NCBI GenBank assembly: GCA_001782015.1
Contig: MFNJ01000014.1
Coordinates: 1-38,235, forward strand
DNA: 38,235 nt
Source of the DNA: Candidatus Levybacteria bacterium RIFCSPHIGHO2_01_FULL_36_15
Lineage (GTDB): Bacteria; Patescibacteriota; Microgenomatia; Levybacterales; GWA1-39-11
Direction: 5' to 3'
The notes under the pieces were generated by a model. The model was not told where the DNA came from. It made no database searches and saw only the letters and a program-made list of their open reading frames with translations. The number at the start of each line of letters is the position of its first letter. The stretch's first letter is position 1. Below, piece after piece: positions 1 to 14,623 of the stretch. Both the position numbers and the translations under genes were made by a program.

Positions 1-5
1 AAATT

Positions 6-17
6 ATCACCTCCTTT
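6..17 (-). promoter_or_regulatory. Perfect Shine-Dalgarno for a gene off the left edge
   Basis: Read on the minus strand this is AAAGGAGGTGAT, a full complement of the usual 16S rRNA 3' end. It overlaps the TGA stop of the helicase-methyltransferase gene at 17-19. A further gene of the same operon should therefore start just outside the window. Most other starts here lack such a site, so it stands out. Confidence 0.7.
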
Positions 18-3000
18 CATTTAATTATTACTACTCCTTTTCCTTTTCCAAGGCTCTTAAATAAAACATAATTTTTCCCCAGCAATATTCGAACATACCC
101 GCTATGAACAATATCTTCTTTTGGAATGTTCTTAATTTTACCATAGATGCTCTTTAAACGTTCCCCACCTGCCGTAACTTTTTCTTCTTCAAGCATCAGG
201 GAGTAATCATCCTCGTTAAAATTGATTTGATATTTCTGACCGTTCATCTCAAACTCTTTTACGATTTTTCTGGAGTTTTTTAGTGCTTTACTTGTTTTTT
301 TCCATTTAAGACCATCGATGTTATCTTTACTCATATTCTCAGCAAGAGTTTCAAAACCTTCTTCAATGTCTCTTTGTTTTTGAAGAGTAATAATTCGCGA
401 TTTATATTGGTTACCCACTTCAACTTCTCCGCTGTATTCATCCAATACTTCAAATCCAAGCACTCTTGCAACCTCTTTAAATTTCTCAACGTCTCTCAAA
501 TCAAGACTATACATAAGATTTATTACTGTTTTTCCTCCGGTTTTTAAAACCCTGTTCATTTCTGTTAAAACTTTAACTCTTTCGTATTCTCCTTTACTTG
601 GAATAAATTTCGTATAATGTAAAGCAAGAGAAAGATTTGCGTAATCAAATGATTTATCCTGAACAGGTAAAGCATTAAAACTTCCTACTATCCGCTTGCC
701 GCCTTCTCCTTGGAAATGATGAGAATTTATATCGAGGCTTACAATTTGTTCTTGATATTCATCTGCAATATGTCTTTTTAACATTTCAGGTCCGGATGCA
801 ATATCCAATATTCTAATATCTTGAAGATTCTGTCCGTGTTCTTTTACTAATCTGTCAATTACAGTTCCGGAAATTCTGCATACGTTTGCTTGATAGCTTC
901 TGCTACTTAATTCCGTGTAACAATCCGCGTAATCCTTGCCGTATTGATTAAGGAATTTTAAGAAATCTTCCTCGCCTATTTCTTTTACGTACGAGAAGAT
1001 TTTCATCATTCTATCCCACGAAGAAAAGTAATACTGAGCAAGTTCAGGATTAACCTCCAGATTTGGATCCTCCTGCTGCTCATTTCTTTCAAGCAGTTCC
1101 TGTTCAATTTGGGATATGGGTATACCACGAAGCAGTTTTTCTATAGCTTTATACTTTATTTCTATATATTCATGGATTCCTTCCTCTATTGTGCCACGAG
1201 TTATAAATGTTGTGCTTGTTAGTGGATGCGCAAGCCCTTCTCTGTGTCCTCTTCCAAGCTGTTGTTTTTTATTATATTTTGTCCATGGTTCATTGTAAAA
1301 ATCTAAAGCATCCGCGCCGGAAAAATTCACGCCAACGTCTGCCGTCTGACCGCTTATCAAAACAAGCATTTTCCCGTTGGAAGTTTTGTTAAGTAATTTT
1401 TGAATTCTTTCTCTTTCTTCATCTTCTACATCACCCTCAATGACATAAACTTGCACATCATCCGGCAATTTTAATTTAGGCAGTATGGATTTGTCTCCTC
1501 TGATCACATTTTCAATATATCCGTTAACAAACATTACCACCTTATCTTTTGTTTGGAATGTTACCTGTAAATGTGTCCTTACTGCATTAATCTTGGAACT
1601 TTCTATACTGGGAGTCACATCAAGAAGTTCCGGATTTAGCAAAAATTGTCTTAATATCCTTATTTTATCTTTTGCTTCAATTTCATCTTCCTCCATTAAA
1701 ATTTCATACACTTCTTTTTCCTTTGCGGATAGGTCTACATACTGGATATTTTCTGAAAGTTTGGGAATATCAATGCTTTCCGCAAGGTCTTTCATTTGCA
1801 TGCGGGGGATAAGTAATTTTCTTATGTCAACTAAATCGCCTTTTATAATATTTCTAACAAGATCTTTATTGTCCATATTCTTAAATCTCTCCGGATAAAG
1901 CAATTTTAATATCATAGCCACATCCGAAACTTTATTTGGCACGGGTGTTCCGGACAGCAATGCAAGATATGAATCCTCTTTTTCAATTTTTGAAGTAAGC
2001 CTTAAAAGGTTTGACGCCCTTACACCTTCTCTTAAGTTTTTAAGCTTATGTGCTTCATCAACTATAAGCATTCCAAAACCTAAATTCTCAAGTTCAGAAG
2101 TATAATTATCATTCATTTTTTCCTGTGAGACTATAACATAATCATAAGAAGAAGTATCATTATCTTTTAAAGATCGGGGATCTTCAACCACCAGAACTTT
2201 TGGAGCAACACCTTTTTTGAAATATCCAATTTGTTTATCATTTTCAACTTTATCCGATAGATATTCAAGCCAGGTTGAAATAACATTACTTGGTGTGACA
2301 ATCAAAGCTTGTTTTACGCCTAAAGATTCTTTTGCAAGAATTGCCGACGCGCTTTTCCCAAGTCCCATACCATCACCTATTAACATTCTTTTTTTATCAG
2401 CAATTTCTTTAATATTAATTAACTGATTTACGTCTGGAAAATCTCTTCCTTCTTTGAGAAAACCAACTATTTGAACAGGTTTTGTAAAACTTAATAGTGA
2501 ATCGTAATATTTTTCTATTTCCGTAACAATATTATTGAGTTCTTTATTATCAAATCTGTTAAACTCACGCCTAATCCAATCAGTATATTCATCAAAAATT
2601 TGGTGATTGTTGCTAACATCTCCGGATTTTTTCTTTAGTTTATAAAATGCCAGGGCACCTTCCTTTATAACTTCCATAAGACCGTCTTTAAGGGTTGGCT
2701 CTGATAAATACTCAATCCCTCCCTCTATATCATCAGGTTTAAATTCACCTCTGGTTATTAAATAGTCACCCAAATAATCTGCCAGAATACTGCTGACTTG
2801 CTCAACTGGTATACCTTTGAATTCCGGCCTGCTTCTGTATAAAATATCAACAATGTTTGATGAACCAAAAAGACCAACAAGTTTCCTGAATGCTTGAGCA
2901 TCAAGAGTTTTATTTTGCGCAACGCTTTCTGCAAAATTCCTTAATTTATCTTCTGCTTTCTTTTTTTGTTTATTCACGTCTTTTCTATCAAGCGCGTCCT

Positions 3001-3415
3001 GAACATGTAATTTAAGATTATCCCTTAATTCAATAATCCTGGGGTCTAATTCTTTTTGATCTGTCCTGCCATGGAAAAAATCTCTTGCTAAAAACCTGAG
3101 ATTTTGATATCTTCCATCCTGTATTAATGCGATTGCTAAAACATATTTTTTGGCAAAAGTGTCATAATCACAGTCTTTACCGGATGATAATTCTGTATAA
3201 TAATCTTCAAATTTTCTCTTTAGCGGATACTCCGGTTGGGAAGGATCTAGAGTTACAATCTTTTCAATCATTTCAGGCCTTACTTTTATTCCGGTTTCAA
3301 TTATTGGAGGTTTAGGATTTGCCTCACCTGTTGTTTCAACAGGACTGTTACCACCCATATCTTTTGGGGCTGATTCAAAAACCGAACCTCTTAGTCTTAG
3401 ATCAAATTCTTTCAT
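17..3415 (-). CDS. SNF2-family helicase fused to a class I SAM methyltransferase
   Basis: This 1132-aa protein has three parts. Residues 1-20 are the MKEFD...SVF tag shared with the next two genes. A helical region of unknown role runs to about 300. A SNF2-type superfamily 2 ATPase spans about 310-770: motif I GDGMGLGKS at 347-355, DEAH at 453-456, motif III LLSGTP at 486-491 and an arginine-finger-like motif VI QLGRGHREG at 719-727. A class I methyltransferase follows at about 840-1010, with motif I ILDIASGP at 869-876, an acidic ribose-binding residue D895 and FDYANLSLALHY at 923-934. The last 120 residues are unassigned. No nuclease domain is visible. SNF2 proteins translocate on or remodel DNA; the methylated substrate cannot be told. 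The ATG lies 2 bp after the preceding stop, so translation is probably coupled. A role in DNA modification, defence or chromatin control is inference. Confidence 0.85.
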   Translation of the reverse strand: MKEFDLRLRGSVFESAPKDMGGNSPVETTGEANPKPPIIETGIKVRPEMIEKIVTLDPSQPEYPLKRKFEDYYTELSSGKDCDYDTFAKKYVLAIALIQDGRYQNLRFLARDFFHGRTDQKELDPRIIELRDNLKLHVQDALDRKDVNKQKKKAEDKLRNFAESVAQNKTLDAQAFRKLVGLFGSSNIVDILYRSRPEFKGIPVEQVSSILADYLGDYLITRGEFKPDDIEGGIEYLSEPTLKDGLMEVIKEGALAFYKLKKKSGDVSNNHQIFDEYTDWIRREFNRFDNKELNNIVTEIEKYYDSLLSFTKPVQIVGFLKEGRDFPDVNQLINIKEIADKKRMLIGDGMGLGKSASAILAKESLGVKQALIVTPSNVISTWLEYLSDKVENDKQIGYFKKGVAPKVLVVEDPRSLKDNDTSSYDYVIVSQEKMNDNYTSELENLGFGMLIVDEAHKLKNLREGVRASNLLRLTSKIEKEDSYLALLSGTPVPNKVSDVAMILKLLYPERFKNMDNKDLVRNIIKGDLVDIRKLLIPRMQMKDLAESIDIPKLSENIQYVDLSAKEKEVYEILMEEDEIEAKDKIRILRQFLLNPELLDVTPSIESSKINAVRTHLQVTFQTKDKVVMFVNGYIENVIRGDKSILPKLKLPDDVQVYVIEGDVEDEERERIQKLLNKTSNGKMLVLISGQTADVGVNFSGADALDFYNEPWTKYNKKQQLGRGHREGLAHPLTSTTFITRGTIEEGIHEYIEIKYKAIEKLLRGIPISQIEQELLERNEQQEDPNLEVNPELAQYYFSSWDRMMKIFSYVKEIGEEDFLKFLNQYGKDYADCYTELSSRSYQANVCRISGTVIDRLVKEHGQNLQDIRILDIASGPEMLKRHIADEYQEQIVSLDINSHHFQGEGGKRIVGSFNALPVQDKSFDYANLSLALHYTKFIPSKGEYERVKVLTEMNRVLKTGGKTVINLMYSLDLRDVEKFKEVARVLGFEVLDEYSGEVEVGNQYKSRIITLQKQRDIEEGFETLAENMSKDNIDGLKWKKTSKALKNSRKIVKEFEMNGQKYQINFNEDDYSLMLEEEKVTAGGERLKSIYGKIKNIPKEDIVHSGYVRILLGKNYVLFKSLGKGKGVVIIK

Positions 3416-3417
3416 AC

Positions 3418-4902
3418 TTATTCCTCAAACAACTTATCAAATTCCTCTTTTGCTTCCTGGGGAGAAATGGGTTCACTTCGGAATTCCTCTCTATGATTTC
3501 GGTTCCTCCCAATTACTCTTTCTATTTCTTCTATAAGCTTGGGGGATAGATGTTCAAACAATCGACCGTTAATTAAATACCAACGAAATAATTCTGGATT
3601 AGATAACCGTAATTTATTGCTTATATTACGTAGTACATATTCTCCTATCCCTAAGTCTAAAGCTAATGATCTTATTGTTCTCCAACCCTGAGGTGATGTT
3701 TCAGACAGTAAAACTTCCTGTTTAATGATATCCACTAATTCAGGAGAGTAGTATTCATGCTTGCCTCTACCCGCAGTTAGAAAAGAACGTAACCATTCCG
3801 GATGTGCTTTGCTGTATTTTAACGCTATTTTCCTAATAGTTTTAATTGCTTTACCTAATTCTTTTGCTAGTCCACCAGTTGTACGCCAACCAAAAACTAC
3901 TTTTTGTGGCAAGAGATCCCGGGCAACTGCTTCAGCTAATTCAGGAGAGTAGTATTCATGTGTACCACGAGCAGAAACAAATTCATGAAACCATTCAGGA
4001 TGATTAATTCTGTATTTTTCTGCTGTATTTTTTGTCGACTGAGGGGAAACTTCCAAATTTTGAGCTAACTTAGTATACGCCATCCAGCCTTCTGGTACTG
4101 CTGTTCTTAAATTAAACACTTTTAAATTGAATTGCTTAATTTCTCTGATCTCAAACCTAATTCCCCATGGTACAAATGCATCATGTATAACGTTAAAATG
4201 TGAATTATTAAAAGATAAATTGTACCGAGTAACCGCCCCAAATAATTTTCTAAAATTTCCTGAAAAGGACAACTTCTCTAAGACAAATCTTTTTGCTTCC
4301 TTAACTTTTTCAGGGTCGGCTTTACTTGTATCTTCTATTAGATATAGTTCGCAAAATTCTGGGTATTCTTCGACAAAAATTTTTCTAACAATTTCTAAAA
4401 TTTCCTCTTTAGTTTTATTTTTCCAAAGATCTCGTACTTTATTGAAATCTCTAATCTTGAATTTAATACCCCAAGGCTCAAAAGATTTTTTTAATGCTGT
4501 ATTAAAGGATCCTTCAAAATATGGCGTCCAATCTCTTGAATATGCAAGATTACCGAAAACAGTTCCAAATTTGTTCTTACTTCTAAGATGTTCCAAGATA
4601 AATCGTCTTGCATCTTCTTCCTTTCCTTTTTTAATTGTTCCTACTTTTCCTTCTTCAAACATCTCGTAAAATATAGGAAATTTCTCAAGAAAAAGTGCTT
4701 GAATATTTCTAATTCCAAGCTCTTCGTTTTGTTCTGGAGAATTTTCTGAATGTTTCCACGTTGCTCTTCCTCGTTTATCCCGAACTACAGTTGGAATACC
4801 CTCTTGTTTTTTCGTATCAGGATTAGAACTAACAATACTACCAGAATCCTTTTCCGGGAGCATAAAAACTGAATCTTTAAGGCTTGGATCAAATTCTTTC
4901 AT
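3418..4902 (-). CDS. Tagged repeat protein with three winged-helix-like modules
   Basis: I recognise no named family in this 494-aa protein. Residues 1-76 align without gaps to the 578-aa neighbour (MKEFDPSL tag, DKRGR at 42-46, SPEQNE at 55-60). A helical domain follows in two copies (about 63-155 and 167-256), each with a [YF]PxF-like motif near its start and WGI[KR]F near its end. Three modules of about 65 residues start at 269, 337 and 404. Each has a GW opening, a helix-turn-helix-like L-A-x-x-L segment, a [HN]PE[WL]-type motif (301, 367, 435) and an E[YH][YL]SP[EK]L wing-like motif (316, 393, 450). The tail PISPQEAKEEFDKLFE matches the neighbour. DNA binding by the modules is inferred from pattern only. 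The ATG is 3 bp after the upstream stop. Confidence 0.8.
   Translation of the reverse strand: MKEFDPSLKDSVFMLPEKDSGSIVSSNPDTKKQEGIPTVVRDKRGRATWKHSENSPEQNEELGIRNIQALFLEKFPIFYEMFEEGKVGTIKKGKEEDARRFILEHLRSKNKFGTVFGNLAYSRDWTPYFEGSFNTALKKSFEPWGIKFKIRDFNKVRDLWKNKTKEEILEIVRKIFVEEYPEFCELYLIEDTSKADPEKVKEAKRFVLEKLSFSGNFRKLFGAVTRYNLSFNNSHFNVIHDAFVPWGIRFEIREIKQFNLKVFNLRTAVPEGWMAYTKLAQNLEVSPQSTKNTAEKYRINHPEWFHEFVSARGTHEYYSPELAEAVARDLLPQKVVFGWRTTGGLAKELGKAIKTIRKIALKYSKAHPEWLRSFLTAGRGKHEYYSPELVDIIKQEVLLSETSPQGWRTIRSLALDLGIGEYVLRNISNKLRLSNPELFRWYLINGRLFEHLSPKLIEEIERVIGRNRNHREEFRSEPISPQEAKEEFDKLFEE
3431..3471. repeat. 41-bp direct repeat, copy 1 (3' end of 494-aa gene)
   Basis: This stretch is identical base for base to 4922-4962. 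It encodes most of the shared C-terminal tail PISPQEAKEEFDKLFE. The upstream coding regions of the two genes are much more diverged, so identity here suggests recent gene conversion or strong selection. Confidence 0.9.
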
Positions 4903-4905
4903 AAT

Positions 4906-6642
4906 TTAAGGATTTTCAAATAACTTATCAAATTCCTCTTTTGCTTCCTGGGGAGAAATGGGATTTTCATGTTTTTCAATAGTATCTCTTTCATCAATTA
5001 TTCTTTTTATCTCTTTAACTAATTCTGGAGCATAATATTCTGTAGATTTAGTCGTTCTTAAGGGTAAAAAATATGCAAACCATTCAGGATTATGCTGTCT
5101 GAATTGTTCCACAATACCATAGATTGTTTTATATGCCCTATTGTATTCATCAACCAAGCTCTTTGCGTTTCTCCATCCATCAGGAACTTTGTGATAACCA
5201 CTCACAGGATTACTTATTTCTTGTTGGATAGCTAAACATAGCTGTGGTGAATAATACTCTCCTGTATGCCCAAATCTTGTATCACACCTTCTAAACCATT
5301 CTGGGTGCGCGATACGATACCTATCAGCAGTTTTCTGAACTGTAACATGCAAAACCCTACCCACATCTCTCACTAAAAGTTTAGCTACAGACTCGCTAGA
5401 CAACCATCCTTCAGGTATACTTTGCTGATTACTATTTCTTTCATTAATACTTGTTCTTATAATGTCACATAAGGCTGGATGGTAATATATACTAGGTTTT
5501 CCTGTACCAGCGGTTAAACACTCTTGAAAGTATTGAGGATGTATCTTTTTATAACTATCAGCTATTCGCTTTACAGTTTTCGGAGCTACTTTAAGTTCTC
5601 CGCCCAAACGTTGACCATTTAACCAATTTTCAGGAGCTTGCTGATAAACAGGCAAAAAACCAGCTCTGATCTCATCTTTTAACTTATCTATCAATTCTGG
5701 GGAATAATGTTCACGAAGTTGTGAGTTTCCCCGAGAGTAATATTTCCTAAACCAATCTGGGTGTTCTCTTTTATACTCTAAAGCTGCCGCATGTAGACGT
5801 TCAGGATTCACATTTAACATTCTTGCTAATGCCTTGTTAGTTTCCCAATTAACTGGCGTTCCTGTATCTTCTGGTAGATCTATTCTTTTTAGTTTAGCTT
5901 TTTGTAATTCCTCCACTATATAAACAACTAACTCAGGAGAGCAATATTCCCAGTGGCGACCTAAATTAACATATTTTCTAAACCATTCAGGATGTTCTCT
6001 TCTGGCCTGCTCAGCAATTTTTCCTACATGATTTAATTTGCTGTGCACTTTTTTCGCTATAGCATATCTTGTAAACCAACCTGTAGGAATATTATTAGAA
6101 TGTTGGTCTCTTGGAACCCTTGTCAGAGCTTCCTCTGATACAGCTTTTCCTAATCTAATATTGCTAGATGGAAATTGTTCAAATCCTTCCATATCAAAAC
6201 CAAAATCAATCCCATATAGCTCAAATGTTTTTTTTATTACAGTAATATATCTACCTTCAAAGTACGGTACGTAGCGCTTTACCAAAGGAAAGTTACCAAT
6301 ATTTTTTTGGAATTTTCTACTACTACCTAGTTTCTCAATAATAAAATTTTGAGCATCTCTTCTTTTATCTTTTATTATTTTCCCATCTTCATCTCTTGGA
6401 AAATCATTGAATTCCGGAAATTTCTCTAAAAAAAGTGCCTGGACATTTTTTATTCCAATCTGTTCATTTTGTTCTGGAGTATTTCCAGGAAGTTTCCACA
6501 TTACTCTTCCCCTCTTATCCTTAAGCACAATTGGAATATCTGGTGATTTTTCGGCTTCAGAAGCAAGATTTGGCGTGTCTCCAGAGTCCTTTGATGGTAG
6601 CATGAAAACCGAGCCTGCTAGCCTTGGGTCGAATTCTTTCAC
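4906..6642 (-). CDS. Tagged repeat protein with five winged-helix-like modules
   Basis: First gene of the minus-strand operon; 578 aa, GTG start. Residues 1-76 align to the 494-aa neighbour, followed by one copy of the helical domain (about 63-155). Five modules with a period of 72-78 residues open at IPTGW 185, TPVNW 262, APENW 336, IPEGW 409 and VPDGW 486. Each carries an HPEWF-like motif (217, 294, 368, 446, 518) and an EYYSPEL-like motif (232, 311, 385, 462, 535). The segment between the GW and HPEWF motifs varies in the place where a recognition helix would lie. The layout suggests a modular nucleic-acid reader, but no experiment or named family supports that. The start is fixed by the conserved MKEFD tag and by a promoter ending 11 bp upstream. 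Confidence 0.8.
   Translation of the reverse strand: MKEFDPRLAGSVFMLPSKDSGDTPNLASEAEKSPDIPIVLKDKRGRVMWKLPGNTPEQNEQIGIKNVQALFLEKFPEFNDFPRDEDGKIIKDKRRDAQNFIIEKLGSSRKFQKNIGNFPLVKRYVPYFEGRYITVIKKTFELYGIDFGFDMEGFEQFPSSNIRLGKAVSEEALTRVPRDQHSNNIPTGWFTRYAIAKKVHSKLNHVGKIAEQARREHPEWFRKYVNLGRHWEYCSPELVVYIVEELQKAKLKRIDLPEDTGTPVNWETNKALARMLNVNPERLHAAALEYKREHPDWFRKYYSRGNSQLREHYSPELIDKLKDEIRAGFLPVYQQAPENWLNGQRLGGELKVAPKTVKRIADSYKKIHPQYFQECLTAGTGKPSIYYHPALCDIIRTSINERNSNQQSIPEGWLSSESVAKLLVRDVGRVLHVTVQKTADRYRIAHPEWFRRCDTRFGHTGEYYSPQLCLAIQQEISNPVSGYHKVPDGWRNAKSLVDEYNRAYKTIYGIVEQFRQHNPEWFAYFLPLRTTKSTEYYAPELVKEIKRIIDERDTIEKHENPISPQEAKEEFDKLFENP
4922..4962. repeat. 41-bp direct repeat, copy 2 (3' end of 578-aa gene)
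   Basis: Exact partner of 3431-3471. It encodes the same tail peptide with the same codons. Outside it the two genes quickly diverge. Confidence 0.9.
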
Positions 6643-6653
6643 AATAGCTCAGA

Positions 6654-6682
6654 ATTATATCAAATTAAGCCTATAGTTTCAA
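6654..6682 (-). promoter_or_regulatory. Promoter of the MKEFD operon
   Basis: On the minus strand TTGAAA (6677-6682) and TATAAT (6654-6659) are separated by 17 bp. Initiation about 7 bp further on leaves a leader of only about 5 bases before the GTG at 6642. It lies back to back with the murE promoter. Confidence 0.8.
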
Positions 6683-6703
6683 GTTGGAGATGATTTTTTA
6701 TCT

Positions 6704-6732
6704 TTGAATTAGAGCTAGCTTTGATTTATAAT
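6704..6732 (+). promoter_or_regulatory. Promoter of the murE wall cluster
   Basis: TTGAAT (6704-6709) and TATAAT (6727-6732) are separated by 17 bp. The ATG of murE lies 14 bp past the -10 box, so the leader would be about 7 bases. The -35 boxes of this and the divergent operon promoter are only 21 bp apart. Confidence 0.8.
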
Positions 6733-6746
6733 CTAAATTAGCATTT

Positions 6747-8012
6747 ATGAGTAGAAAGCTTAAGAACTTTTACCATTTACTTGAAGCAATAGCTGCAAAT
6801 ATAATCTATGGTTTTCCGTCAAGAAATATATTTATTATTGGCGTAACGGGAACAGATGGAAAAACAACTACAACCAGCATTATTTATCATATTTTAAAAG
6901 AAAGCGGAAAAAAAGTAGCCATGATTTCAACAGTTGGAGCAGCCATTGGCAACAAAACCTACGACGTTGGATTTCACGTGACCACTCCTTCTTCTTTTGG
7001 ATTGCAAAAATATATTAAACAAGCAATGGATTTAGGAAATAAATACCTGGTTTTGGAAACAACTTCACATGCAATAGATCAGTACAGGATTTTTGGAATT
7101 AAATTTTCAATGGCTGTTTTGACCAATATAACCCACGAACATCTTGACTATCACAAAACTTATGAAAATTACGTTAAGACAAAATCTAAATTATTAGAAT
7201 CAGCAAAGATTGCTATTGTGAACAGAGATGATGAATCATACCAGCATTTTGATTCAAAATTCAAAATTCAAAATGCAAAATTACAACTCAAAAATCAAAA
7301 ATGGGTTACTTATGGCATGAAAGAGAATGCAGATATTAATCCGGATAATTTTCCTTTTAAAACTAATTTGATTGGGAAGTTTAATAAATATAACTGTCTG
7401 GCTGCGATTGCTGTTTGTAGGGAATTAGGCATTAACGATGATTCAATTCGGAAGGCGATTTTAAGTTTCAAAGCGCCTATCGGGAGGCAGGAAATTATTT
7501 ATAATAAAGATTATATAGTTATGATAGACTTTGCTCATACCCCAAATGCTTTTGAAGAAATATTGCCTGAAGCGCGCAAAATCGCAAAAAAAAGATTAAT
7601 TCATGTTTTTGGTTCTGCGGGCCTTCGCGATGCTACAAAAAGGCCGCTTATGGGTAAAGCATCGGCTGAATATTCGGACATCATTGTGCTGACTGCGGAG
7701 GATCCGAGGACGGAATCAGTTGAGGATATTAACAAACAAATATTGGAAGGAATTTCTAATTCGAAATTTCTAATTTCTAATGAATTTTCAAATCCAAATT
7801 TAAAAATTCAAAAAAATAAAAAGTACGTATTTAAAATCCCCGACAGGAAAAAAGCAATAGAATTTGCGATTTCAATTGCTCAAAAAGGAGATCTGGTAAT
7901 CTGTACGGGAAAAAGTCATGAGAAATCGATGAATTATGGTAAAGGGGAAGAATCTTGGGATGAATTCGGTGTATCAAGACAAGCTATAAAATCAAAGGCC
8001 AGCTTAAGTTAA
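6747..8012 (+). CDS. murE: MurE-type Mur ligase (UDP-MurNAc-tripeptide synthetase)
   Basis: Cytoplasmic ATP-dependent ligase expected to add the third amino acid to UDP-MurNAc-L-Ala-D-Glu. At 421 aa it is shorter than typical MurE (about 490): the N-terminal UDP-binding domain is nearly absent and the ATP loop GVTGTDGKTTT sits at 32-42. Other family marks are TTPSS near 79-83, ETTSHAIDQ near 104-112, NITHEHLDYH near 127-136 and a late GKSHE at 388-392. The substrate motif reads EDPR (318-321). The arginine resembles the DNPR of diaminopimelate-adding enzymes, which suggests but does not prove that specificity. Two AT-rich stretches at residues 169-186 and 338-359 look like inserted repeats. 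First gene of the wall cluster. Confidence 0.92.
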   Translation: MSRKLKNFYHLLEAIAANIIYGFPSRNIFIIGVTGTDGKTTTTSIIYHILKESGKKVAMISTVGAAIGNKTYDVGFHVTTPSSFGLQKYIKQAMDLGNKYLVLETTSHAIDQYRIFGIKFSMAVLTNITHEHLDYHKTYENYVKTKSKLLESAKIAIVNRDDESYQHFDSKFKIQNAKLQLKNQKWVTYGMKENADINPDNFPFKTNLIGKFNKYNCLAAIAVCRELGINDDSIRKAILSFKAPIGRQEIIYNKDYIVMIDFAHTPNAFEEILPEARKIAKKRLIHVFGSAGLRDATKRPLMGKASAEYSDIIVLTAEDPRTESVEDINKQILEGISNSKFLISNEFSNPNLKIQKNKKYVFKIPDRKKAIEFAISIAQKGDLVICTGKSHEKSMNYGKGEESWDEFGVSRQAIKSKASLS

Positions 8013-11546: not shown

Positions 11547-12298
11547 AGAACGGACATCTTCCGGATTTCAATGAAATTTGGGCTGTAGTTCTTGCTGCAG
11601 GAAAAGGCAAAAGAATGAAAGCAAGAGAAAAAAATAAAGTAACTTACACAATAAAAGGGGTACCTATGATAACAAGAACTCTTAATATAATTAAGAGTGC
11701 AGGAATTAATAATATTGTGGTAGTAGTGGGTTTTGCGAAAAAATCAGTCTTGAGTTTACTGGATGAAAAAATTAAAACAATTGAACAGAAAAAAAGGTTA
11801 GGTACAGGACACGCGTTAAAGGTTGCTTTAAATACGATTCCAATTTCTGCTAAATATATACTTGTTCTCAACGGAGACGACTCCTTTTTATATTCGGGAG
11901 ATATTATTAATAAACTTATCAGGACACACATTAGAAACGAATCAAAATTTTCCTTGATAACAATAGAAGTTGAGAATCAATATGGTTTAGGAAGAATACT
12001 TAGAGACGAAAATAGGAAAATAATTGGGATAGTTGAGGAGAAAGACGCAACAGAGTCCCAGCGTAAAATAAAAGAAGTTAACCCGGCTTGTTACTTGTTT
12101 TCTTCAGATTTTTTGAGAAAATATATTAATAAGATACCAAAAAGCAATATTTCGGGAGAATATTATTTGGTAAGTCTGGTTGAAATGGCAGTAAAAAATA
12201 AACAGCCGGTAAGCGCTTTTACTATAAACAATTTGAGTTGGAGAGGGGTAAATACTCCGGAAGAGCTTTTTGAGGCTGAAAGGATTATAGTCGAATAA
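11543..12298 (+). CDS. glmU: GlmU uridylyltransferase half (separate gene)
   Basis: A 251-aa nucleotidyltransferase matching only the N-terminal domain of GlmU. It has the LAAGKGKRM signature at 17-25, RLGTGHA at 85-91 (usual QLGTGHA) and NGD at 110-112. It should make UDP-GlcNAc from GlcNAc-1-phosphate and UTP. Bacterial GlmU is normally one bifunctional chain of about 450 aa; here the acetyltransferase half is the next gene, 6 bp downstream. GGAGG lies about 7 bp before the ATG, one of the few clear Shine-Dalgarno sites in the cluster. A related sugar-1-phosphate nucleotidyltransferase specificity cannot be excluded from sequence alone. Confidence 0.8.
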   Translation: MKNGHLPDFNEIWAVVLAAGKGKRMKAREKNKVTYTIKGVPMITRTLNIIKSAGINNIVVVVGFAKKSVLSLLDEKIKTIEQKKRLGTGHALKVALNTIPISAKYILVLNGDDSFLYSGDIINKLIRTHIRNESKFSLITIEVENQYGLGRILRDENRKIIGIVEEKDATESQRKIKEVNPACYLFSSDFLRKYINKIPKSNISGEYYLVSLVEMAVKNKQPVSAFTINNLSWRGVNTPEELFEAERIIVE

Positions 12299-12304
12299 AC
12301 TTCT

Positions 12305-12955
12305 ATGACAAGCGGAGACGTGAAAGACCTTCAACCGGAAGCATATTTCAACCTGAATGATTGTTATTTTTCCGATATATTTAAAGATATTAATTTTGTC
12401 TGGGAAGCGCTATCGAAAACAAAAGATTATATAACAAATGTCTTTCACGAAGGAATTATAAAACCTGACTACAAAAATAACTTTGTGTTCATAGGAAAGG
12501 GAACAATTATACAAGAAGGAGTTCAAATACAGGGTCCTGCAGTTATAGGCAAAAACTGTTTTTTGGGTCACAGCAGTTTTATCAGAGAAAATTGCATCTT
12601 GGGTGAAGGAGTTCATATTGGACACGCTGTAGAAATTAAAAATTCAATATTTCTGAATAAAGCAGTTGCAGCTCATCTTAACTATATTGGAGACAGTATT
12701 ATAGGAAATAATGTAAATATTTCAGGAGGCGCAATTCTTGCAAACTTCAGACTGGACAAAAAAAGTGTATCTATAAAAAAGGGGGGTAAAAAAATTGAAA
12801 CTTGTCTTGATAAATTCAGTTCCATAGTTGGCGATGATGTGATTATTGGCGTTAACTCAGTTTTGAATCCGGGCACGCTTATTGGCAAAAATTCTTTGGT
12901 ATATCCGCTTACCTCAGTTTCAGGATTTTACGCGGCTTATTCAATAATTAAATAA
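12305..12955 (+). CDS. glmU: GlmU acetyltransferase half, left-handed beta-helix protein
   Basis: The 216-aa protein consists of hexapeptide repeats (IGKGTI, IGKNCF, LGEGVH, IGNNVN and so on) forming a left-handed beta helix. The catalytic set known from E. coli GlmU (R333, K351, H363, Y366, N377, N386) has counterparts at identical spacing: R94, K112, H124, Y127, N138 and N147. This supports glucosamine-1-phosphate acetyltransferase activity rather than a generic acyltransferase. The first 55 residues are not hexapeptide and may pack against the partner. It lies between the uridylyltransferase half and a CysQ-like gene, 6 bp and 3 bp away. Confidence 0.8.
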   Translation: MTSGDVKDLQPEAYFNLNDCYFSDIFKDINFVWEALSKTKDYITNVFHEGIIKPDYKNNFVFIGKGTIIQEGVQIQGPAVIGKNCFLGHSSFIRENCILGEGVHIGHAVEIKNSIFLNKAVAAHLNYIGDSIIGNNVNISGGAILANFRLDKKSVSIKKGGKKIETCLDKFSSIVGDDVIIGVNSVLNPGTLIGKNSLVYPLTSVSGFYAAYSIIK

Positions 12956-12958
12956 ATT

Positions 12959-13774
12959 ATGGATGGAGAACTGACAAAAATAGAAGGATTTTTTAAGGAA
13001 ATTATTTTAACAGCCGGATCAAAAATCAGAGAATTTTATATTAAAAAAAATTATAAAATACTTCCTAAAGCAGATGTTAATGATGCCCTTACAACCTCCG
13101 ACATAGTTTCTGAAGATTTTATAATAAACAAAATCATAAAAAAGTTTCCCAAATACAACATTTTGTCGGAAGAAAAAGGATTCATAGACAATAATTCGGA
13201 ATTTACTTTTGTTCTGGATCCTCTTGATGGTACAAAGGAATTTATCAGAAATATTCCGGATTTTAATGTTATTGGAGGAGTACAGTATAACGGAGAAATG
13301 GTTTTAGGAATTGTGTATAAACCTATGACTGAGGAATTTTTCTGGTCAAGAATTAACAGTGGTGCTTATCTTGGTAAGCGCAAAATTCACGTTTCAAAAA
13401 TATCGGATCTAAATAAATCTTATATCTATACAATAATTCCATTATTGTCTACTAAAAAAAATATTTCTGATTTGAGCTGGAAAAAATTGTCAGAGTTGAA
13501 TAGAAAAGTATACAGGATGAGGGGTATGGGAAATACAAGCAGCGCTTTTTGTTTAATCGCAAAAGGCAGTTTTGAAGGATACGTTAATACGATAGGCTTG
13601 ATTAAAGGTTTATGGGACGTAGGCCCAAGTATCATAATTCTCAAGGAGGCAGGAGGGACAATATCCAACTTGCAGGGAAGTATTTGGAAGCCTGAAAGAG
13701 ATTTGAACAAAGGTTTAATTGCTTCAAACGGACTGATACATGAAAAATTGATAAATGCTTTAGAGCCTGTTTGA
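12959..13774 (+). CDS. cysQ: Inositol-monophosphatase-family phosphatase, CysQ-like
   Basis: A 271-aa Mg-dependent, Li-sensitive-type phosphatase. The metal-binding marks are SEEKG near 71-75, DPLDGTKEF near 86-94 and LWDVGPS near 218-224. DPLDGTKEF is typical of CysQ, the 3'(2'),5'-bisphosphate nucleotidase that clears PAP, rather than of inositol monophosphatase. No sulfate-assimilation genes are nearby, so the physiological substrate is uncertain. It ends the first run of wall genes; a 96-bp gap with two hairpins follows. Confidence 0.8.
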   Translation: MDGELTKIEGFFKEIILTAGSKIREFYIKKNYKILPKADVNDALTTSDIVSEDFIINKIIKKFPKYNILSEEKGFIDNNSEFTFVLDPLDGTKEFIRNIPDFNVIGGVQYNGEMVLGIVYKPMTEEFFWSRINSGAYLGKRKIHVSKISDLNKSYIYTIIPLLSTKKNISDLSWKKLSELNRKVYRMRGMGNTSSAFCLIAKGSFEGYVNTIGLIKGLWDVGPSIIILKEAGGTISNLQGSIWKPERDLNKGLIASNGLIHEKLINALEPV

Positions 13775-13807
13775 AAAGTTCTTCTATTATCTTTGAGAGA
13801 ACTTTTC
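13773..13807. repeat. 10-bp perfect inverted repeat after the cysQ-like gene
   Basis: GAAAAGTTCT (13773-13782) pairs exactly with AGAACTTTTC (13798-13807) across a 15-base loop, starting at the cysQ stop codon. There is no following T-run. It may be a weak terminator or a processing hairpin. Confidence 0.65.
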
Positions 13808-13821
13808 GTGACAATGGTCTT

Positions 13822-13855
13822 ATGAAGCTGTTTATAATCTTTTAAACATCTTCAT
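13822..13855. repeat. 13-bp near-perfect inverted repeat around a TATAAT box
   Basis: The arms ATGAAGCTGTTTA (13822-13834) and TAAACATCTTCAT (13843-13855) pair with one mismatch across an 8-base loop. The TATAAT at 13833-13838 lies inside, 32 bp before the hydrolase ATG. The upstream -35 match is poor (GTGACA, 19-bp spacer). The element could be an operator over a promoter or a second hairpin in a read-through mRNA. Confidence 0.6.
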
Positions 13856-13870
13856 AGAAATGTAGCCTTT

Positions 13871-14623
13871 ATGAACAAAAAGAGTTCAACAGTTAAAAAT
13901 ATTATTGTACTTCACGGATGGGGGTTGTTTGGCGCAAGATATAAAAGTCTTGCTGAAATTCTTTCTTCTGCGGGATTCAAAGTGTATGCTCCTGATTTAC
14001 CAGGATTTGGGAACAATAAGAGTGTAAAAGGCGATCTGACTTTACCCGATTACGCTTCATATCTTAAAGATTTTATTGAAAAAAACAAAATAACCAGTGT
14101 AGTTTTACTTGGCCACTCTTTCGGAGGTCGTGTCATTATTTGTTTTTTGGATAAATATAAAGATTTAATTAAAAAATCTAATATAAAAGCGATCGTTTTA
14201 ACAGGAAGTCCTTTGACAAGATCCAAACTGTCTCTTAGAAAAAAAATTGGAATTTTTATCTCAAAAACCGGAAAAGGGCTGGTAGAAAGCATTCCGGTTG
14301 TTAATCCAAACAATGATTTTTTTAGAAAATTAGTCTATAAAATCATTGGAGAGTGGGATTATTATAAAGCAGGACAATTAAAAAAAACTTTTGTTAATAT
14401 TATCAACTATGATCTAGAAGATAAGCTAAGTGAAATTAATCTCCCCACTTTGATTATTTGGGGGGAAAATGATAGAATCGTATCTTATAGTGATGCGTTG
14501 AAGTTAAATAAACTTGTAACTGGTTCTAAATTAGTCGGAGTTAAAAACGCCACACATAAACTGCCCTACGAGCAACCTGAAATTTTTGCAAGCGAGGTAA
14601 TTTCCTTTCTAAACTCGTTGTAA
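13871..14623 (+). CDS. Alpha/beta hydrolase
   Basis: A 250-aa alpha/beta-hydrolase-fold protein with a complete catalytic triad in family order: nucleophile Ser83 in GHSFGG, Asp200 in WGENDRIV and His228 in NATHKLP. The oxyanion-hole motif HGWG is at 15-18. No signal peptide is visible, so it is probably cytoplasmic. Family members include esterases, C-C hydrolases and haloperoxidases, and the substrate cannot be read from the sequence. It sits between the cysQ-like gene (96 bp) and murF (6 bp), so it is probably co-expressed with wall genes. Confidence 0.85.
   Translation: MNKKSSTVKNIIVLHGWGLFGARYKSLAEILSSAGFKVYAPDLPGFGNNKSVKGDLTLPDYASYLKDFIEKNKITSVVLLGHSFGGRVIICFLDKYKDLIKKSNIKAIVLTGSPLTRSKLSLRKKIGIFISKTGKGLVESIPVVNPNNDFFRKLVYKIIGEWDYYKAGQLKKTFVNIINYDLEDKLSEINLPTLIIWGENDRIVSYSDALKLNKLVTGSKLVGVKNATHKLPYEQPEIFASEVISFLNSL

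Follow-up and report, generated by a model that had tools for sequence, protein, structure and literature searches.

A SNF2 ATPase-methyltransferase locus of Patescibacteria-like bacteria with locus-specific terminal tags that may dock its subunits

INTRODUCTION

Small terminal elements that otherwise unlike proteins of a single system or operon have in common are described in bacterial conflict systems, where effector-associated domains (EADs), small and mostly α-helical domains of 12 recurring families, are proposed to recruit their carriers into complexes (PMC7159879, PMC8195603). In polyketide and non-ribosomal peptide synthases, short N- and C-terminal regions of the subunits act as docking domains that enforce correct assembly (PMC9113145). 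The helicase-methyltransferase defence systems DISARM, BREX, Dpd and Hma, in turn, include the helicases DrmD, BrxH, DpdE and HmaA, which are similar to the SNF2-type motor of P0001, the largest of three proteins considered here. These proteins are encoded next to one another in a 38,235-nucleotide stretch (the window) of contig MFNJ01000014.1, assembly GCA_001782015.1, from Candidatus Levybacteria bacterium RIFCSPHIGHO2_01_FULL_36_15, and all three begin with the same peptide tag. The explanation that we favor, to which we give a probability of about one-half on the sequence evidence, is that this locus and its relatives would encode a multi-subunit DNA-acting machine joined by terminal tags, with a domain that we call DGRY as the socket and with a likely role in defence.

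RESULTS

Tags on the Window Proteins

One of the three genes encodes a fused SNF2 ATPase-methyltransferase (S) and the other two encode module-repeat proteins (M), with tags at the following positions.

17-3415, minus strand: P0001 (S), SNF2 ATPase-methyltransferase, 1132 amino acids (open reading frame; Pfam)
3418-4902, minus strand: P0002 (M), module-repeat protein, 494 amino acids, with N-tag and C-tag (open reading frame; paralogue of P0003)
4906-6642, minus strand: P0003 (M), module-repeat protein, 578 amino acids, GTG start, with N-tag and C-tag (open reading frame)
3353-3415, minus strand: N-tag of P0001, MKEFDLRLRGSVFESAPKDMG
4840-4902, minus strand: N-tag of P0002, MKEFDPSLKDSVFMLPEKDSG
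6580-6642, minus strand: N-tag of P0003, MKEFDPRLAGSVFMLPSKDSG
3421-3471, minus strand: C-tag of P0002, PISPQEAKEEFDKLFEE
4909-4962, minus strand: C-tag of P0003, PISPQEAKEEFDKLFENP

An earlier note on this DNA had claimed a single N-terminal tag on all three proteins, and this held up well, with 12 of the 21 first residues invariant and scores over the first 30 residues of 58 for P0001 against P0003 and 52 against P0002 (shuffle p = 0.0005 each), the 95% limit for between-locus pairs of N termini being 25. The note had also called the proteins very different, which is true of P0001, whose body is unrelated to those of P0003 and P0002 (BLASTP E values of 2 and 0.2), and not of the two M proteins, which are paralogues along their whole length (34% identity, E value 5e-69), so that only the N-tag of P0001 is surprising. 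Similarly, its argument that the tags match at the protein level with differing codons can be kept for the N-tag, given the 3, 8 and 9 synonymous codon differences over the three gene pairs, but fails for the C-tag of P0002 and P0003, which is a near-exact DNA copy. Over this C-tag 46 of 48 nucleotides are identical and the two differences are synonymous, though the genes have otherwise diverged; the stretch was either copied recently or converted, and a conversion confined to the tag is likely.

The profile search proposed in the same note found P0001, P0002 and P0003 as the sole carriers of the N-tag in their own genome and no convincing carrier elsewhere across 374 genomes of the class, so this particular sequence is confined to the one genome. 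We also considered a relationship between the window N-tag and the N termini of L010, L034 and L129, and dropped it for lack of significance (shuffle p values from 0.15 to 0.92). Within the window's genome the N-tag is present on S and both M proteins, and the C-tag on both M proteins and on the product of a fourth gene, E.

The Fourth Gene and the Cassette Layout

The window begins 16 bases past the stop codon of P0001, with a strong Shine-Dalgarno sequence within those 16 bases, and on contig C49 of the same genome the E gene begins with a GTG some 3 bases inside the contig edge, in an orientation matching the window cassette.

1-16, minus strand: Shine-Dalgarno sequence of the fourth gene, strong; the gene itself lies outside the window
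G000:C49:18197-18766 (L128:10198-10767), minus strand: E, 189 amino acids, at the end of contig C49 that faces the window

Because orientation, Shine-Dalgarno sequence and start codon fit, we infer that E directly follows P0001 across the C14/C49 junction; members of the E family likewise lie immediately after S in split loci elsewhere. Hence the three-gene cassette of the earlier note is real as far as its adjacent same-strand genes go, but it is not complete, since the contig edge cuts off the fourth gene. The note's case for one operon, built on 2-3-bp gaps and one promoter, agrees with intergenic gaps of 2 and 3 nucleotides and a single strong promoter-like site a few bases 5′ of the P0003 GTG at 6642.

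6654-6682, minus strand: promoter-like site, TTGAAA-17-TATAAT, extended -10, 11 of 12 positions matching

The -10 box lies only about 9-12 nucleotides before this GTG (6642-6660), and because of this proximity the transcript may be leaderless.

The E protein of the window ends in ENPLVDPEEVNRKFERFLEV, which resembles the P0003 end ENPISPQEAKEEFDKLFENP; its C terminus scores 45 against P0003 (shuffle p = 0.0015) and 35 against P0002 (p = 0.02).

C-terminal Tags Pair E and M by Locus

The earlier note had made its idea depend on the genes occurring together in relatives, and counterparts do co-occur in other genomes, in two arrangements. In the split arrangement, seen in the window, L011 and L027 to L033, the M proteins are separate, usually with E; in the fused arrangement (L010, L034 and L129) the modules are joined to S in cis and no E was found. 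The module types vary from locus to locus. The E-like proteins of L032 and L033 are assigned by position and alignment, because the E profile gives a weak match to the former (7e-4) and none to the latter.

Although the bodies of E and M are unrelated, their C termini match within a locus and differ between loci, and over nine loci they pair by locus with a sum of 313 and a permutation p of 3e-5 (8e-5 without L033, a related locus). The stretch directly before the tags gives p = 0.054. The tags shared by M and E read PTDLE[RK]LLE in L028, TTE.AN in L031 and S.EEL in L032 and L033, and in L029 three M proteins with unrelated bodies end in DQWL[DN][ED]ML. Tag codons in these other loci differ synonymously, and the C-tags have a loose acidic, hydrophobic pattern in common across loci. 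S shows no convincing C-tag (S-M C termini, permutation p = 0.064), and the pairing of S and M N termini (p = 0.024) is driven by the window. Read from sequence, then, the general feature is the C-tag and not the N-tag sequence, and the recurrence of locus-own tags in most split loci favors the earlier proposal that such tags serve in docking or assembly of one complex, belonging to an undescribed system.

Another type of partner was observed in L034, a locus of a Patescibacteria metagenome-assembled genome. A phosphoribosyltransferase-like protein (L034:13057-14295; PF00156, 1.5e-5, slightly below cut-off), which is neither M nor E, has the N-terminal FGLNPFNPEE in common with the neighboring S (score 68, shuffle p = 0.0005).

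A Candidate Socket at the N Terminus of S

The S proteins of the window, L011, L027, L028, L029 and L031 have in common an N-terminal domain of about 115 residues with a DGR[YF] motif.

2894-3253, minus strand: N-terminal "DGRY" domain of P0001, spanning roughly residues 55-174 (profile built from six split loci)

In leave-one-out searches the six members were recovered with E values of 2e-16 to 5e-23, whereas the profile did not find the domain in fused L010, L034 and L129 (E > 0.05). In a tree built on the motor-methyltransferase core, those of the window and L027 are nested inside the fused clade (support 96/99) and well apart from those of L011, L028, L029 and L031, so the presence of the DGRY domain does not track the core. 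The domain may have arrived along with the trans arrangement, or else have been lost on module fusion, and on both readings it is tied to trans partners. It has no relative in the PDB. We infer from this distribution that the DGRY domain is a candidate socket for the C-tags.

E Is Probably a Methylpurine-DNA Glycosylase Relative

Roughly the first 100 residues of E align with methylpurine-DNA glycosylase (MPG; human AAG, PF02245). Read off an alignment with human AAG, the catalytic position is occupied by Glu in six of eight E proteins, and all eight carry an aromatic residue two positions further along. E differs in being shorter and in having Gln in place of the Glu in L028 and L031. None reaches the PF02245 cut-off of 27 bits, the best being L132 E (22.8 bits, E value 6.6e-5), and the window E has no match to this family. 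In a PDB search with the E profile, human AAG chains were the sole matches (E values 0.02-0.05). By hhalign, E without L132 against two MPGs gave a probability of 13% (E value 0.0022), and E with L132 placed on the MPG side gave 95% (3e-8), compared with 0.1% (about 0.5-0.7) for reversed and shuffled controls. E is hence probably a divergent MPG relative, below formal membership. Assignment of E as an EVE domain (PF01878; E value 0.017 in one member) was dropped in favor of MPG. An ordinary MPG occurs in one of 60 relatives (L134:1401-2150, G005), where it is broken by an in-frame TGA.

Motor, Methyltransferase and Modules

P0001 matches SNF2-rel_dom (1.8e-19), Helicase_C (1.9e-10) and Methyltransf_11 (1.4e-8) in Pfam, and the modules of P0002 and P0003 were delimited by module alignment.

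1238-2398, minus strand: SNF2 helicase-like motor of P0001, residues 340-726 (Pfam)
524-811, minus strand: S-adenosylmethionine-dependent methyltransferase domain of P0001, residues 869-964 (Pfam; motif scan)
3499-4101, minus strand: three helix-turn-helix modules of P0002, residues 268-468
4993-6093, minus strand: five helix-turn-helix modules of P0003, residues 184-550

The [DNS]PP[YFW] motif of amino-group DNA methyltransferases is present neither in the window S nor in S of 14 of 15 other loci. Among the PADLOC models, those for helicases hit the motor stretch of P0001 (HmaA 7.5e-15, BrxHI 2.7e-14, DpdE 2.5e-13, DrmD 2.1e-7), but this likeness to the DISARM, BREX, Dpd and Hma helicases is partial and confined to the motor domain, and full-length DISARM or Dpd membership is far off by the NCBIfam cut-offs (DrmD 41 of 610 bits, DpdE 47 of 500).

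Neither P0002 nor P0003 has a significant match in Pfam or NCBIfam; in PADLOC, P0002 has none and P0003 has weak partial ones (BrxB, 3.6e-5 across 67 residues). Because homologous modules in L142 and L143 match helix-turn-helix Pfam families above cut-off, the window-type modules are, judged by this homology, helix-turn-helix repeats. In L142 six of them are fused C-terminally to a superfamily 2 helicase of 939 amino acids (ResIII, Helicase_C; L142:5508-8327), and in L143 they form stand-alone proteins (5426-7360 and 12194-14501) with no SNF2 gene seen among nearby open reading frames.

Distribution

With the window's own genome always in the count, 4 of 99 relatives have an S homologue; by taxonomic rank the figures are 3 of 82 genomes for the order, 9 of 374 for the class and 6 of 380 for the phylum. 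A scan of genome contigs covering 80 loci gave L034 (49% identity) as the sole clear relative, the others matching the motor stretch only. Phage and plasmid records likewise match only in the motor region, below 60% identity throughout and at no more than 27% among the matches listed, and viral contigs gave no match; hence there is no sign of viral origin. At L057:9776-14786, L058:9776-15370 and L066:9770-14793 a different long helicase-like gene is immediately followed by a gene for about 500 amino acids (MTITLTKTDYILYRECP...), and in L057 and L058 recombinase-like genes, judged by eye, lie close by.

DISCUSSION

In the proposed machine, S would supply the motor and methyltransferase, the M proteins would be exchangeable DNA-recognition arms built from module arrays (helix-turn-helix in the window), and E, a small subunit resembling methylpurine glycosylase, would read or remove altered bases. 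The C-tags of M and E, which are about 10-18 residues long, acidic and probably helical, would dock in trans, most likely onto the DGRY domain of S, with co-evolution of tag and socket such that each locus keeps its own code. Where modules are fused to S in cis, both the DGRY domain and the E gene are missing. In the window the second, N-terminal tag would provide an extra contact between S and M. The likely role would be the recognition of foreign or marked DNA.

The tags might instead bind one another by homotypic helix bundling, forming a scaffold with no socket on S. This reading, which we regard as unlikely, requires the same tag on both partners, and that is what is seen for M and E, for S and M of the window and for S and the phosphoribosyltransferase-like protein of L034; for the N-tag especially, there is no candidate for a socket. 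However, 10-18 residues are short for stable bundling, the hub S is itself without a convincing C-tag, and the DGRY domain tracks the trans arrangement. That the tags are signals for a common host factor (a protease adaptor, chaperone or localisation factor) and not for docking between subunits is improbable: they are short, terminal and on otherwise unlike proteins, and their loose acidic, hydrophobic pattern spans loci, but a common reader would keep one tag across genomes, whereas these differ by locus, and would be expected to have its tag on other proteins too, whereas the window N-tag is on just three. The recent copying of the C-tag between the paralogous P0002 and P0003 is what would be seen if tags were functionless by-products of gene-end duplication or recombination, yet most tag pairs are on proteins with unrelated bodies and synonymously different codons, and they recur in many loci, which makes this reading very improbable.

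The assembly could also be correct and its role one of housekeeping, in DNA repair or nucleoid organisation. A methylpurine-glycosylase-like subunit with a SNF2 motor would be suited to finding damaged bases, an ordinary MPG is seldom present in the relatives, and the window neighbors are housekeeping genes; against this the locus is rare and patchy even within its order, its modules are variable, and toxin-antitoxin and nuclease genes adjoin other loci, so that we consider such a role somewhat unlikely. The same patchy distribution and neighbors point tentatively to defence. Near S lie an AbiEii toxin family gene (L027:5501-6133), a Fic/DOC gene with a MazE antitoxin (L028:14738-15384) and a PDDEXK_1 nuclease gene (L033:2575-3237); an AbiEii-looking gene in L031 was recognized by eye only.

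Several observations count against the tag-docked defence machine. The DGRY domain is undetected in S of L030, L032 and L033, despite the tags around S, and E is without a tag in L011, L027 and L030. In the window the match between the M and E C-tags is just moderate (shuffle p 0.0015 and 0.02), and the C terminus of S in L029 weakly resembles that of its M2 (score 28, shuffle p = 0.0085). The permutation statistics were computed on the same loci where the tag pattern was first noticed, and an attempt to find further loci in the order to which G281 belongs, intended as an independent test, returned known loci only. AlphaFold models of P0003 with P0002 (confidence score, pLDDT, 38.5) and of P0001 residues 790-1132 with L034 (43.8) were too low for a fold search. 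As to defence, the genes flanking the window cassette are housekeeping genes.

If docking is real, each locus would offer a naturally insulated tag-socket pair, the existence of cis-fused and trans-docked forms would make the socket directly testable, and Patescibacteria-like bacteria would possess a candidate machine for DNA recognition or defence.

We found no description resembling the system among the open-access papers searched, and neither the M proteins of the window nor the DGRY domain has a name in any library searched. Hallmark partners of DISARM, BREX, Dpd and Hma were not found in the cluster (PADLOC on P0002 and P0003), and in contrast to those systems the methyltransferase, which is Methyltransf_11-like, is here fused to the motor. 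We tentatively propose, at slightly short of even odds, a new DNA-targeting class with a locus-specific docking code, in which a hub with an N-terminal socket would receive C-tagged arms and a glycosylase-like subunit and switch between cis and trans forms by domain gain or loss. The EAD principle is similar, but EAD systems center on other NTPases, and the element here is a peptide of 10-21 residues that differs per locus; the window tags, at about 20 residues, coincide with no Pfam domain and hence no known EAD family. As matched, locus-specific terminal peptides on unlike subunits, the tags have the appearance of docking peptides such as those of the synthases. In the synthases (PMC9113145), the docking domains are complementary end pairs within a chain, whereas here several subunits would present the same C-tag to a presumed separate socket domain in an unrelated, DNA-acting system.

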